From an uncultured Saprospiraceae bacterium (GTDB lineage: Bacteria; Bacteroidota; Bacteroidia; Chitinophagales; Saprospiraceae): a DNA stretch of 51,405 nucleotides. This document shows positions 28,952-33,395 of the stretch, one piece after another. Positions within the stretch are counted from its first letter, which is position 1; each line of letters opens with the position of its first letter. The position numbers and the translations under genes were made by a program. The stretch is taken from contig CAKZTD010000178.1 of NCBI GenBank assembly GCA_937921595.1, positions 1 through 51,405 on the forward strand, written 5' to 3'. The notes below the pieces were generated by a model, which did no database searches, was not told where the DNA came from, and saw only the letters and a program-made list of their open reading frames with translations.

Positions 28952-28959
28952 TAACTTTG
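28952..28959 (+). promoter_or_regulatory. -7 box of the TPR-HTH regulator gene
   Basis: TAACTTTG matches TAnnTTTG, with a T-rich -33 region 19 bases upstream. It overlaps a TTG that would otherwise be the longest possible start, which argues for the ATG at 29053. Confidence 0.6.
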
Positions 28960-29052
28960 TTCCTCAATCCGTCTATAACTCTAAGGCTCGCCCGTAACTT
29001 TAACTTACTCCTTGGTGAGTACCTTTTTTCTATAAAACAAATACACTCTTTG

Positions 29053-30690
29053 ATGATCAGAATTGCTTTGATCATACTATTAGGTCTAATCCACGCAGAC
29101 TTCAGTGCTCAAACTCCTGAGATTGATAGTCTCAAACTATTATTGTCTAAGGCCAAATCTAGCGATCAATCGGAACTACTAAATCAGATAGGAATCGTCT
29201 ACTCCAAAAATCAGGAATATGAAAAAGCCTTGGATTTCCATAAAAAGAGCTTGAATTCAACAAACACCAATGAAACAGAATTGGCTGCGCTTAGAGGTAT
29301 TGGTAAAAGTTATATTATCCTAAAAAATGCTGAAAAAGGATTAGAGTATTCATTATTGCTCAAGCATAAAGCCGAATCATACAATAATGCTTCATACCTG
29401 GGCCTTGCTTATACTCAATTGTCTCGGATAAAGGGTGAAATAATGAAGGATCCCAAAAGTGCTGAAGATTTGAATCTAAAAGCGATTGATATTTTTATAA
29501 AATCGGAAAATAAGGCTCATCTTTTCTCTGCATATAATGATTTAGGGATTGTTTATTTTAATCAGAAAAAGCATTTAAAAGCCATTAAAGAGTTTGAAAA
29601 AGCCTTACTAATTGCGAAGGAATTAAAAAGTGATAATAATATAAGGTTAGTCACAAGTAATATGGCTGGGGTATACCTAGAGTTGGAGCAATTCGAGCTT
29701 GCTTATCAATACAACAAAGAAGCGCTAAGTATTTCAAATAATTCGAGTACCGTCCATATGGAAATCTATGACTATTTATTGCTTGCGATGCTTCAGCAGG
29801 AAAATGGACAATTAGACTCTGCCATTATAAATGCTAATTTAGGAAAGCAGTTAGCCATAGAAACCAATAGCTTGGAGAATCTTGTCTGGGCCAATGATCT
29901 ACTTTTTAAAACTCATAAAGAAAAAGGTGATTATAAAAAGGCATCAGAATTGGCTGAAATTTCTTTGTCTTTAAAAGATAGCCTAAATCAAAGTGCGATT
30001 ACAGCTCAACTTTTGGAAAAGGAAGCAGAAATTGCTGGCCTCCTCAAAGATCAAAAAATCAGATCGCTTGAAAAAAATGCAGAACGACAACGTTTTATCC
30101 GTAATGCAATCATTCTTTCAACTATAGCTGCCTTATTCTTCGTTATTGTACTTTATAAACGAAAAAAATTATTGGTTTCTCTTCAAGAAAAAGAATTGAC
30201 GGTTTTGAACTCAATTAAAGATATAGAAAGTAAAGAGAAGGAGATGTTAAAAGAAAAGCTCTCTCATCAGGAACGTGCCTTGGCTACTAAAACTATGCAC
30301 ATTATTCAAAAGAATGAAATACTAAATGAATTGAAAAATAGTATTTCAAACTTAGTTACTGACTCTACAAACCTAAAACCTCAGATTAGTAAACTTAATC
30401 GAACAATCGAAAGCAACATTAATTTTGATGATGACTGGGATAAATTTAAACTTCACTTTGATCAGGTGCATCCACAGTTTTTCGAAACACTCAAACAAAA
30501 ATATCCTACCTTTAATAATAATGACTTCCGATTTTGTTCCTACATCAAAATGGGACTTTCTACTAAGGAGATTGCTCAGCTCATGGGCATCAATGCTACC
30601 AGTATTCAAAAAGCCAGATATCGTCTCAAGAAAAAAATGAATCTGGATAAGGAAACCAATCTTATTGAGTTTATCAATAGTAATATTTAG
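29053..30690 (+). CDS. TPR membrane regulator with LuxR-like C-terminal HTH
   Basis: A 545-residue one-component regulator of a kind common in Bacteroidota. A signal peptide (MIRIALIILLGLIHADFSAQ) leads into about six TPR units in the periplasm (e.g. NQIGIVYSKNQEYEKALDFH, YNDLGIVYFNQKKHLKAI). One TM helix (NAIILSTIAALFFVIVLY) and a cytoplasmic coiled coil follow (EKELTVLNSIKDIESKEKEM). A LuxR/GerE-like HTH closes the protein: NDFRFCSYIKMGLSTKEIAQ, MGINATSIQKARYRLKKKM. The start is the ATG that gives the signal peptide. A longer TTG form would begin inside the promoter. It is divergent from nqrA and could regulate it or itself. Signal unknown. Confidence 0.88.
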   Translation: MIRIALIILLGLIHADFSAQTPEIDSLKLLLSKAKSSDQSELLNQIGIVYSKNQEYEKALDFHKKSLNSTNTNETELAALRGIGKSYIILKNAEKGLEYSLLLKHKAESYNNASYLGLAYTQLSRIKGEIMKDPKSAEDLNLKAIDIFIKSENKAHLFSAYNDLGIVYFNQKKHLKAIKEFEKALLIAKELKSDNNIRLVTSNMAGVYLELEQFELAYQYNKEALSISNNSSTVHMEIYDYLLLAMLQQENGQLDSAIINANLGKQLAIETNSLENLVWANDLLFKTHKEKGDYKKASELAEISLSLKDSLNQSAITAQLLEKEAEIAGLLKDQKIRSLEKNAERQRFIRNAIILSTIAALFFVIVLYKRKKLLVSLQEKELTVLNSIKDIESKEKEMLKEKLSHQERALATKTMHIIQKNEILNELKNSISNLVTDSTNLKPQISKLNRTIESNINFDDDWDKFKLHFDQVHPQFFETLKQKYPTFNNNDFRFCSYIKMGLSTKEIAQLMGINATSIQKARYRLKKKMNLDKETNLIEFINSNI

Positions 30691-30811
30691 AATAAAGAAT
30701 GCCTGAAACCTCCTTAGGCAATACAATTACAAGTTTAGGCATATTACCTACCAGCCTATAAACTTTAATACTTTTTAACAAAGATGTCATAGGTCTGTCC
30801 ATCATTTTTAT

Positions 30812-30842
30812 TTTCAAAAACTTGGATTTACCTACATCTTTG
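30812..30842 (+). promoter_or_regulatory. Promoter of RNA module A
   Basis: TTTC (30812-30815), 19 bases, CATCTTTG (30835-30842) followed by CAT. One base differs from TAnnTTTG. The same TTTC-N19-CATCTTTGCAT arrangement precedes module B. Confidence 0.5.
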
Positions 30843-30869
30843 CATACGACAATAAGAAAGCATAAAATA

Positions 30870-30932
30870 ATGCATCTGTTGATTACTATCCTCTTCTTCT
30901 CTTTCCAAACTATCCAAGAAAACAATAACTAG
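30870..30932 (+). CDS. Possible hydrophobic micropeptide in module A
   Basis: A 20-codon ORF, MHLLITILFFSFQTIQENNN, begins about 20 nt after the predicted transcription start and has a purine-rich AAGAAAG upstream. Its stop codon lies in the 5' arm of the AACTAGAAC hairpin. The hydrophobic core followed by a polar tail recalls small type I toxins or a leader peptide, but no equivalent is found in modules B or C. It may be chance. Confidence 0.25.
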   Translation: MHLLITILFFSFQTIQENNN

Positions 30933-30980
30933 AACGATAAACCTCCGCTCGGTAAGTTCTAGTTCCTAGAGCAACAAGAA

Positions 30981-31046
30981 TAAGGGAGTGATGGAGTCCT
31001 GGTTAGATTATTATTTTTTAATAACAAGACCAGGGCTTTTCCCTTA
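30981..31046 (+). repeat. Long-hairpin family member 1
   Basis: TAAGGGA (30981-30987) pairs with TCCCTTA (31040-31046), and AGTCCTGGT (30995-31003) with ACCAGGGCT (31029-31037), one G-U. The stems are separated by GTGATGG on the 5' side and TT on the 3' side. Preceded by AAGAA. Confidence 0.75.
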
Positions 31047-31240
31047 CTTAACATTACCAATATCTTTTCAACCTCATTAAAACAAAACAGAAGAAGCAAA
31101 CCTTCGCTCCTTTCTTATTCCACTCTCATTACTTAGAACCTGTATTCCCATAGCTAAGGCTATGAAAAGGCAAAAACACTTCTTCAGAACCTTAAATTGA
31201 GTTTTTTCGCCATCGAAAACAAAGCTTGGACAGGTTCTTA

Positions 31241-31312
31241 GAATAAGGGATTGAAGTAAGCCTTGGCAGCTAAATTATATTATTATAAAATTTAGCGTCA
31301 AGGCTTTTTTTT
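31241..31312 (+). terminator. Terminator of module A, related to the long-hairpin family
   Basis: It opens with GAATAAGGGA like the other members, then AAGCCTTG (31258-31265) pairs with CAAGGCTT (31299-31306) and GCTAAATT (31269) with AATTTAGC (31289). It runs into eight T residues. Confidence 0.85.
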
Positions 31313-31528
31313 GAAAAAAATCAGAATTTTTTCACGGCTTAGCGCAGGATCAATGAACAAGGAATTTCGTTTCCATTTCTTCATCTTTACTTTTAATATT
31401 CCAAATATTTTTTTCGGAAAAACAAAAAACGTAAGTATTACACTAAGTCAACTAGGTATAATACTTATTGGAACTAAAAAAAAGTGTTTTTTTAACAATT
31501 TCGTCCTAGCTCTGTCCAAGCTTATTTC

Positions 31529-31559
31529 TTTCATCAGCCTTATTTTGCCCCCATCTTTG
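31529..31559 (+). promoter_or_regulatory. Promoter of RNA module B
   Basis: TTTC (31529-31532), 19 bases, CATCTTTG (31552-31559) then CAT. Same elements and spacing as module A. Confidence 0.5.
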
Positions 31560-31675
31560 CATTCTTTTTAGGGAGAAGGTTAATTAACTATTGATACCTC
31601 CTAAAACAGCTTAAAAAAATAATAGAGATAAAACTCTTACAGGTAGTTTTCCAAAAGAGGAAAACAAAAGAATAA

Positions 31676-31745
31676 AAGGGAGTGATTAAGTACTGGTTAT
31701 TTTATTTGCAATCTATTTTGTGAATAAGATGCCAGACTTCCTCTT
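31676..31745 (+). repeat. Long-hairpin family member 3 (degenerate)
   Basis: AAGGGAGTGATTA is followed by AGTACTGGT. The 3' side (CCAGACT, 31732-31738) pairs only with a bulged A. This is the least well preserved copy. Confidence 0.5.
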
Positions 31746-31803
31746 CCTTCTACAAATAAAAATTGAAGAGACAAATCTTCGCTCAAATGAACAACAGAAG
31801 AAT

Positions 31804-31875
31804 AAGGGAGTGACCGAGTCTTGGTTGTTTTACCTTCTATTAATTTAGCGGATAAGGCACCAAGACTTTTCCCTT
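31804..31875 (+). repeat. Long-hairpin family member 4
   Basis: AAGGGA (31804-31809) pairs with TCCCTT (31870-31875), and AGTCTTGGT (31817-31825) perfectly with ACCAAGACT (31859-31867). The 5' internal loop is GTGACCG, the 3' loop TT. Confidence 0.8.
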
Positions 31876-31959
31876 TTCCTTGAAATACATGATTAACTTT
31901 TAAGAATCATATTCCAAAGTAGTACATATTTGTTTGTTATATTAGATACGGAAATCTAT

Positions 31960-31993
31960 AACCTCAATTACTCTAGGGTAGTTGAGGTTTTTT
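31960..31993 (+). terminator. Terminator of module B
   Basis: AACCTCAA (31960-31967) pairs with TTGAGGTT (31982-31989), followed by a T-run. Confidence 0.8.
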
Positions 31994-32201
31994 CAAAAAC
32001 AAATTAATCGCCTTCTGAAAGGGAATACTAATTCATTTTAGTTGATGAGGAGCTCAAATTTCTCCTTTCTTTATTTTAATCAGCAAGTAGGAATTGTCTA
32101 ATTAGTCGTTTCCATGCTTGATTTATGCTTAAAAGTTAAGCGAAAATCAAGTCATTTTTTAAAAAGAGAAAAAAATATCATATTTTAATTAAAAATAATA
32201 C

Positions 32202-32209
32202 TAACTTTG
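32202..32209 (+). promoter_or_regulatory. -7 box of RNA module C
   Basis: TAACTTTG is a perfect TAnnTTTG match. No good -33 box at 19 bases. It lies at the equivalent relative place to the module A and B promoters. Confidence 0.4.
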
Positions 32210-32503
32210 GAACTCAGTAGAAATATATACGTATTAATGCTGACAACTCCCTTTAGGCCTCTGCGCCACTTTAGCAATTAAAATTATAAGATTTTCAAAC
32301 CAAATGTGTCCTGAGATTTCTCAGAATTTGCATTGGTTGAAAACAAAGTCATTCCCCCATAAGTTTTTAAAGAGAATAATACAAGAGGGCTTCTACCCTT
32401 CTAACTTAAAATTTTTCCGTCCTGTACAAAAAGCCAATCTCCTGCAAAGGGGACTAATTCACTATGCCTATTAGTTTTTTCTTTTTAGAAAGAACTCAAG
32501 AAT

Positions 32504-32573
32504 AAGGGAGTGACCGAGTCTTGGTTGTTTTGTTGACTAATTACTTAGTTGATAAGGCACCAAGACTTTTCCC
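32504..32573 (+). repeat. Long-hairpin family member 5
   Basis: The same stem sequences as member 4 (AGTCTTGGT at 32517 with ACCAAGACT at 32559; AGGGA with TCCCT) and the same GTGACCG/TT internal loop. The apical part differs and forms its own GACTAA/TTAGTT helix. Confidence 0.8.
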
Positions 32574-32658
32574 TCTTTTTCATATTCCCTCAAATAAAGT
32601 CCACAAAAACTACTTTAAAGAGCTAATATTTGTTTGTTATATTAGATACGGGAATCTG

Positions 32659-32693
32659 ACCTCAATCAATTATTTGATTGAGGTTTTTTTTTT
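32659..32693 (+). terminator. Terminator of module C
   Basis: ACCTCAATCAA (32659-32669) pairs with TTGATTGAGGT (32674-32684) around TTAT and is followed by nine Ts. Confidence 0.9.
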
Positions 32694-32741
32694 AATGCTT
32701 TAGATTATTTGATAAAAGTATCAAGAAGCTATTTTGCTCCA

Positions 32742-33395
32742 TCACTTACTCAGCAAAGCTTGATCATAAGTCTGTTTCCATTTTATAAATCCGAGGATAG
32801 CTATGACCGTATACACAATCATTAGTAAGGCATATAAATAATAAGCTCTATGAAAATACATTCCCGTAGTGACGATGTCTATGATGATCCAGTATATCCA
32901 ATTTTCCAACACCTTTCTCGTTACCATATAAGTCGCGATAAAACTAAAAACTGTTGTAAAAGCATCTAACTTAGGAATTTTTGCATCTGTATAATTTTCT
33001 AAGACATAAGCTAAAATAAGAGCAACTAGAAATCCAAAAGCAATGGTAATTCCATGACTCTTTAAATTCCAAGTATGGATTTTTAAATTGCCTTTTTCTT
33101 CTAACTGATTCAATACCTTCGCCTCCTCGCTTCTTTGATTCGTCCAAGCGTACCATCCATAAATCCCCGCAATTACATAATAGCCATACAAGACTGATTC
33201 CGCATATAATTGTCCAATATAAAAAAGATAAATACTAAGTAATGAACTAACAATCCCAAACAACCAGCACCAAACATTTTCCTTCACTGCTAGAATCACA
33301 TAAATTAACCCCGTGATCACCGCCCATATTTCAATCCAAGTCATGTACTCCCAAGCTTTTACCAGCGCTGACAAAATCGAATTATTATCTTCCAT
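32742..33395 (-). CDS. pnuC: PnuC-family nicotinamide riboside (or related) transporter
   Basis: In this 217-residue inner-membrane protein with seven predicted helices the PnuC hallmarks are present: WCWLFGIVSSLLSIYLFY, YGYYVIAGIYGWYAW and, near the C-terminus, LENWIYWIIIDIVTTGMYFHR. PnuC transporters facilitate uptake of nicotinamide riboside for NAD synthesis, and relatives carry thiamine (PnuT) or riboflavin (PnuX). No TPP or FMN riboswitch could be recognised upstream, so the nicotinamide riboside assignment is the default. The gene stands alone and is divergent from the MoxR-like ATPase, with a large inverted repeat between them. Confidence 0.88.
   Translation of the reverse strand: MEDNNSILSALVKAWEYMTWIEIWAVITGLIYVILAVKENVWCWLFGIVSSLLSIYLFYIGQLYAESVLYGYYVIAGIYGWYAWTNQRSEEAKVLNQLEEKGNLKIHTWNLKSHGITIAFGFLVALILAYVLENYTDAKIPKLDAFTTVFSFIATYMVTRKVLENWIYWIIIDIVTTGMYFHRAYYLYALLMIVYTVIAILGFIKWKQTYDQALLSK

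Follow-up and report, generated by a model that had tools for sequence, protein, structure and literature searches.

What does a 2-kb stretch of DNA encode when it lies between a regulator gene and a transporter gene and carries no recognizable protein gene of its own? In an uncultured Saprospiraceae bacterium, such a stretch (positions 30691 to 32741) is part of a 51,405-nucleotide contig that we analyzed at its full length (hereafter, the window). It is flanked by a gene for a TPR-HTH protein (28957 to 30690, plus strand; Pfam TPR_12, 3e-19), which adjoins it directly upstream and which we propose as its activator, and by a convergent pnuC-type gene for an NMN transporter (32742 to 33395, minus strand; PF04973, 4e-55), a synteny marker that is dispensable for the proposed system. 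Beyond the regulator gene, on the side far from the RNA array, is nqrA. An earlier note on this DNA had found no convincing coding sequence here and had proposed three promoter-to-terminator modules as a candidate new noncoding RNA family. Consistently, the longest open reading frame lying fully within the stretch (ATG, GTG, or TTG starts) spans only 86 aa (31311 to 31571), and no reading frame is kept across relatives. No tRNA or tmRNA was detected in the stretch, and the Rfam scan that the note had called for (4,227 families, including the CsrB/Rsm models), run on the window and on 10 related loci, returned nothing at gathering score. The best sub-gathering match in the window was NrrF, which scored 31 bits where 60 are required; this match, mir-23, and the others below cut-off were judged to be chance.

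The order of promoter, hairpins, and terminator does occur three times, in modules A (30847 to 31312), B (31564 to 31993), and C (32214 to 32693), each a predicted plus-strand transcript with a putative start, a -7-like box, and an end formed by a hairpin and a T-run. Folding supports all three, as do terminator and hairpin similarity for A and matches to the covariance model R1 (see below) for B and C. The order stands, but the modules are unequal: A contains an interspersed repeat and lacks a 3' box, and the promoter of C lacks an operator. More specifically, the -7 boxes of promoters A and B carry TTTG at 30839 to 30842 and 31556 to 31559 (plus strand), respectively, placed by sequence and by spacing to the operator; module C is preceded by the -7-like box TAACTTTG (32202 to 32209, plus strand), recognized by its sequence, and alignment of this promoter revealed no TGTCC repeats. 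Promoters A and B are 70% alike over 74 nt, and the shared TTTC-N19-CATCTTTGCAT that the note had pointed out falls within this likeness. At the opposite end, a consensus terminator scan gave five sites versus a shuffle mean of 1.1. Two of the five are on the plus strand, namely terminator C (32658 to 32692) and a weak site at 32311; terminators A and B were missed by the scan and are visible in the folds (terminator B at 31959 to 31993; hairpin A2, at 31238 to 31312, is also terminator-like for module A). An 88-nt hairpin block (84% alike) and a 32-nt block (97%) of module B recur in module C at a spacing of 700 nt, and a 24-nt motif (AGAATAAGGGAGTGA...) occurs in five copies in the region (75 to 100%). 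Judged by sequence comparison, A, B, and C appear to be sibling copies of one noncoding RNA gene.

The family core is a hairpin, GAATAAGGGAGTGACC-GAGTCTTGG...CCAAGACTTTTCCC, with some compensatory changes, downstream of which come a 3' box (TATTAGATACGGGAATCT) and then the terminator. We captured this 3' domain in covariance model R1, trained on hairpin B2 (31797 to 31873), hairpin C (32497 to 32573), and the loci of three relatives in the same genus, g1 (G001, G002, and G004; the window genome is G000). The 3' boxes, delimited by repeat comparison and the training alignment, lie on the plus strand at 31925 to 31958 in module B, preceding its terminator, and at 32624 to 32658 in module C. Outside the training set, R1 matched the plus-strand hairpins A1 (30975 to 31045; 51.8 bits), B1 (31669 to 31746; 42 bits), and A2 (37.2 bits; also evident in the fold) in the window, and a further locus in G003 (61.7 bits). 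Because it also gave two minus-strand matches of 29 to 30 bits over the same palindromic hairpins, its E-values are generous and weak scores need care. Searching relatives with such a model, as the note had suggested, and with DNA placed the RNA in all five g1 genomes that the searches returned (G000 to G004); it was found in G001, G002, and G004 by DNA search and in G003 by the covariance model, and each relative gave one R1 match versus three modules in the window genome. Among 244 other genomes of the family, no R1 match was convincing (best, 24.8 bits; six genomes at E ≤ 1), in a search that scored 10 candidates per genome with stricter filters, so that absence beyond the genus is not firm. 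Of these six (G156, G240, G177, G097, G246, and G073), the first three were read and rejected, their 3' box being missing and their stem broken; the G156 candidate still has AAATAAGGG-GT-ACC. With blastn at E ≤ 0.1, 94 of 199 family genomes gave matches; outside the genus these were mostly short and were left out of the evidence.

Eight hairpins of the genus were aligned (A1, B1, B2, C, and those of G001 to G004; A2 was excluded), and AAGGGAGTGA proved invariant on the 5' side. In the 16-pair stem, 85.7% of cells were paired, relative to 35.5 to 52.4% when partners were slid, and two-sided changes occurred at 5 of the 16 pairs. Out of 500 letter shuffles, the observed value was reached by 13 for paired cells, 5 for doubly changed cells, 47 for the covariation score, 96 for pairs with double changes, and 454 for further pair types; the covariation signal against shuffles is modest. 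The upper arms vary between copies, yet they pair in most single folds. A second, degenerate hairpin unit in G004 folds poorly. The predicted RNA of that genome measures about 810 nt, with this unit and a second terminator-like hairpin upstream of the core (L058, 6861 to 7010), and possibly represents two fused modules. As far as sequence goes, the proposal of a new RNA family is supported by its presence in five of five genomes, the two-sided stem changes, and the lack of an Rfam match or a conserved reading frame. Traits predicted for trans-acting small RNAs are likewise found here, i.e., a promoter-like box at a putative start, a terminator, conserved structure, and no conserved open reading frame.

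How might such RNAs be switched on? Modules A and B are each preceded by an operator built from 11-bp direct repeats (TGTCCnAGCnn), and the final repeat stands 43 nt upstream of the TTTG in the -7 box. Operator A (30774 to 30800, plus strand) consists of TTTAACA and repeats beginning TGTCA and TGTCC, and is recognized by register and by the 43-nt spacing; operator B (31491 to 31517, plus strand) consists of TTTAACA and repeats beginning CGTCC and TGTCC, and was additionally found by pattern search (one mismatch). The promoters of A, B, G003, and G004 align without gaps as TTTAACA-N4-TGTCCnAGCnn-TGTCC..., then TTTG. When 299 family genomes were searched for the pattern TTTAACANNNNTGTCCNAGCNNTGTCCNAG with up to two mismatches, it occurred at five places, as compared with none for the reversed control, and all five are RNA loci, three in g1 and two in a second genus, g100 (G104 and G291). 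In every RNA promoter of the two genera in which a TGTCC was found (11 of 11), a distance of 43 nt separates the start of the last TGTCC from TTTG (nine) or TTTA (two), a count that leaves out module C and G001, which have no TGTCC, and promoters running beyond contig ends (e.g., in G193). The repeats are in register, with four per g100 promoter when variants are counted, two in g1 after TTTAA, and one in G002.

The candidate for binding this operator is the neighboring TPR-HTH protein. Its HTH may be of the sigma-70-region-4/LuxR-like kind, going by two hits below Pfam's own cut-offs (Sigma70_r4_2, 8.3e-5; GerE, 7.5e-4), and a hydrophobic segment seen by eye near residue 400 is probably transmembrane. 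In G003 and G004, homologues (38 to 40% identity over about 500 aa) are found at the equivalent position. G002 retains a 51-aa remnant at the locus and has three full-length paralogues elsewhere (25 to 26% identity); at the locus of G001 no regulator was found, and neither G001 nor G002 has a match of the 38 to 40% grade elsewhere. The operator varies in parallel: the two-repeat form accompanies an intact regulator in G000, G003, and G004, a half-site accompanies the remnant in G002, and both are missing at the G001 locus. With five genomes bearing on this link, the tracking of regulator loss by operator loss or erosion could be coincidence.

Regulator homologues outside the array provide further evidence. 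Fifty-seven matches yielded 50 with loci, and 47 remained after removal of three RNA loci. Searched with no spacing condition, these 47 loci contained three TGTCC-N6-TGTCC sites, all with TTTA or TTTG at +43, and the other repeat gaps from 0 to 15 gave zero or one site each. In a wider search with the full pattern, covering 30 genomes (20 picked by hand besides the 10 that belong to the two genera), 20 operator-like sites were detected versus 7 in the reversed control, and these include the three sites just described, at the same places. Fifteen are intergenic or at the edge of an open reading frame, and five lie inside reading frames. We looked for TPR/HTH genes by tblastn at all 20 loci and by Pfam in 20 neighboring proteins of 11 loci, and found them at eight (L196, L200, L204, L205, L206, L208, L212, and L214), with the G003 and G004 RNA loci accounting for two of these eight; L197 and L198 are g100 RNA promoters, and the remaining 10 lack an RNA array and showed no TPR/HTH gene within 1.5 kb. 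Given the homologue-locus sites at +43 and the TPR/HTH genes beside operator-like sites, the 11-bp operator seems to belong to this class of TPR-HTH regulators. Some other Saprospiraceae TPR-HTH loci, those of certain paralogues of the regulator, resemble the window in operator and spacing but have a protein gene after the operator where the window has an RNA gene. Six 43-nt-spaced operators of this kind, beside TPR-HTH genes and before protein genes, were noted (L206, L208, L196, L200, L205, and L212). The six proteins encoded after these operators, some of them cut by the locus end, had no Pfam match, and five of the six have a signal-like start by eye. Separately, we observed intergenic operator-like sites with no TPR-HTH gene found within 1.5 kb at L195, L202, L207, L210, and L213, the last preceding the gene of a peptidase S74-domain protein.

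The operator sites of g100 (G104 and G291) are each followed by a noncoding stretch whose far end is next to pnuC; this is clear in G104 and was judged by eye, at a contig end, in G291. Used as a DNA query, the G104 stretch found related sequence in five of five g100 genomes; three of the eight matching genomes fall outside g100, and their short, doubtful matches near the E limit were not counted. The hairpin units of g100 differ in sequence from those of g1, taking the form AATATAGGGTTTTAGTTAGG...CTCGG-stem-CCGTATTTGA. Their arms pair more stably with their own partners (mean, -14.1 kcal/mol; n = 11) than when crossed between units (-8.9 kcal/mol; n = 110), and 10 of the 110 crossed pairs reach the stability of the median own pair. 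The 11 units are those left from 13 extracted ones after removal of 2 whose arms could not be delimited; the three G104 units are near copies. G104 has three tandem 123-bp copies of the hairpin unit (100, 87, and 63%; L138, 1697 to 2065). One unit per array was found in G291 versus three in G104, so copy number varies between species. In G318, about 1.1 kb separates two promoters that each carry the operator. Place, operator, and the motif AAGAATA(T)AGGG suggest that the RNA bodies of g1 and g100 are homologous. The search for a regulator homologue covered four of the five g100 genomes, and each of the four has one (32 to 36% identity), elsewhere in the genome than beside the RNA. In the tree, a single fork (84/83, drawn open) holds the locus regulators, the g100 homologues, and an additional pair of g100 paralogues; support for this fork is moderate.

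Conserved structure, constant operator spacing, absence or erosion of the operator along with absence or decay of the regulator, and recurrence in a second genus can be read directly from the DNA. The reading that they support best is that of sibling RNAs transcribed under the regulator's control, transcription itself being a prediction. We propose that the regulator, with its TPR repeats, probable membrane segment, and HTH, binds the TGTCCnAGCnn operators of A and B and, once bound, would activate their transcription; at least A and B may be switched on by their neighbor in this way. The resulting RNAs, of about 430 to 480 nt, would end at intrinsic terminators and carry one or more conserved hairpins (GAAUAAGGGAGUGACC and a stem), with B and C also carrying the 3' box. 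Action in trans is most likely, and the repeated hairpins would be presented to, and titrate, an RNA-binding protein, much as Rsm/Csr RNAs do; that the RNAs would titrate a protein, and not pair with mRNAs, is our guess. Taken as a whole, this reading of a TPR-HTH-driven array that acts in trans by titration stands, in our judgment, evenly poised between right and wrong.

The Rsm system would be the closest in logic. Passages of one publication (PMC7911923) describe several diverged Rsm RNA genes per genome that arose by duplication, an upstream activating sequence of the regulator, and hairpin-repeated motifs that sequester a protein, and it is in duplicated RNA genes, a putative upstream regulator site, and hairpin motifs that the window resembles Gac/Rsm (RsmX/Y/Z) and Csr (CsrB/CsrC) as portrayed there. 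CsrA (PF02599) was found in none of 10 genomes by a search that matches 3 of 14 control genomes, including E. coli; a strict CsrA sponge, and membership in Csr/Rsm, fail on this result. Further differences are apparent: Csr/Rsm has GGA loops, and the window hairpin motif is, by eye, AAGGGAGUGACC and a stem; the operator of the window consists of 11-bp direct repeats; and the Gac/Rsm regulator is a GacA-type response regulator, unlike the TPR-HTH protein of the window. In Csr/Rsm a regulator site is expected before each RNA gene; here, 11 RNA promoters carry TGTCC at a constant distance, and module C and G001 carry none. Repeated structured units ahead of a terminator also occur in type III toxin-antitoxin loci (ToxI-like RNAs). 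In the window, by comparison, the repeats are far apart, each module has its own promoter and terminator, and there is no toxin endoribonuclease gene downstream of the array, the neighbor being the NMN transporter gene on the opposite strand.

With the same genes and regulator, the RNAs could instead be base-pairing siblings, the unpaired AAGGGAGUGACC and the 3' box pairing with mRNAs. Qrr-type sibling RNAs are multicopy genes under one regulator, and usual base-pairing small RNAs are shorter and without such repeated hairpin units. Pairing would fit the stretches TAAGGGAGTGACC and ATATTAGATACGG, which are invariant in the five R1 training sequences, and GATCGTGTGATAGGTTGTTTGTCC, which by eye stands directly before the terminator in several g100 modules; on the other hand, the predicted RNAs span 318 to 812 nt across loci and have repeated hairpin units, and the 3' box is not alike between the genera. 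Relative to Qrr and PrrF, which PMC7911923 names, in the passages concerned, as multicopy small RNAs, the window RNAs are longer and multi-hairpin, and Qrr differs from them in regulator class. We regard base pairing as possible, although we incline against it.

The array might also act in cis on pnuC, as an antisense RNA or a barrier terminator. The RNA does end beside a convergent pnuC in G000, G001, G002, and G004 (the array lies directly before it in the three relatives, and the G002 terminator overlaps its 3' end), as do the g100 loci of G104, G193, and G318 (C343). Yet the G003 RNA follows the regulator homologue with no pnuC beside it, g100 copies lie away from pnuC in G291 (C303:4132) and G250 (C214), and the sequence conservation exceeds what termination needs. 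Control of pnuC as the main role was rejected on the G003 locus and those g100 copies, and we consider action in cis improbable.

Fortuitous hairpins in decaying intergenic or mobile-element debris are a very unlikely explanation. It would accommodate the AT-rich DNA, the fast-changing RNA body, the modest covariation, and a MITE-like interspersed repeat inside module A that stands outside the RNA family (31133 to 31240, plus strand; 108 bp, ends TTAGAACCTGT/ACAGGTTCTTA), of which at least 25 further places were found in G000 (40 of 179 candidates scored). Seven copies were aligned; the repeat (the window copy and regions L002 to L008) has ends TTAGAACCTGT(CCAA)/(TTGG)ACAGGTTCT(T)A, the window copy being a shortened form. 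Against this, the array is kept in five of five g1 genomes, its stem survives sequence change, and its promoter architecture is common to two genera. Moreover, no match came from two motif scans of viral contigs, nor from a blastn comparison of the 2-kb region with phages and plasmids, and on these results a phage or plasmid origin was rejected.

That the modules encode very small proteins is extremely improbable. Short frames do exist, and 42 stop-to-stop frames from the stretch, each 25 aa or longer, were compared with relatives. The best, a frame of 65 aa that covers the core of module C, matches G001 (44% over 68 aa; E, 3.5e-11), but its G002 match is split between two different frames, and the minus strand and other frames of this region match relatives at the same motifs, for which reasons we read the frame matches as conserved DNA and no protein.

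The operator, the link to the regulator, and the occurrence in a second genus go beyond the earlier note, and among the matches listed in a record-level literature search we found no published account of this RNA/regulator system. In a broader and more doubtful extension of the titration reading, a TPR-HTH class whose 11-bp tandem operator, at the other sites observed next to such regulators, mostly precedes genes for secreted-looking proteins would have gained a noncoding output in two Saprospiraceae genera, in the form of rapidly duplicating multi-hairpin RNAs that titrate an RNA-binding protein. To our knowledge, few regulatory RNAs of this phylum have known regulators; the locus offers a testable regulator-operator-RNA circuit, and the fixed 43-nt operator spacing is a handle for predicting targets of TPR-HTH regulators. 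If the hairpins do titrate a protein, bacteria in which the search detected no CsrA would possess a new RNA-binding regulator, and the array would represent an Rsm-like cascade built without CsrA.
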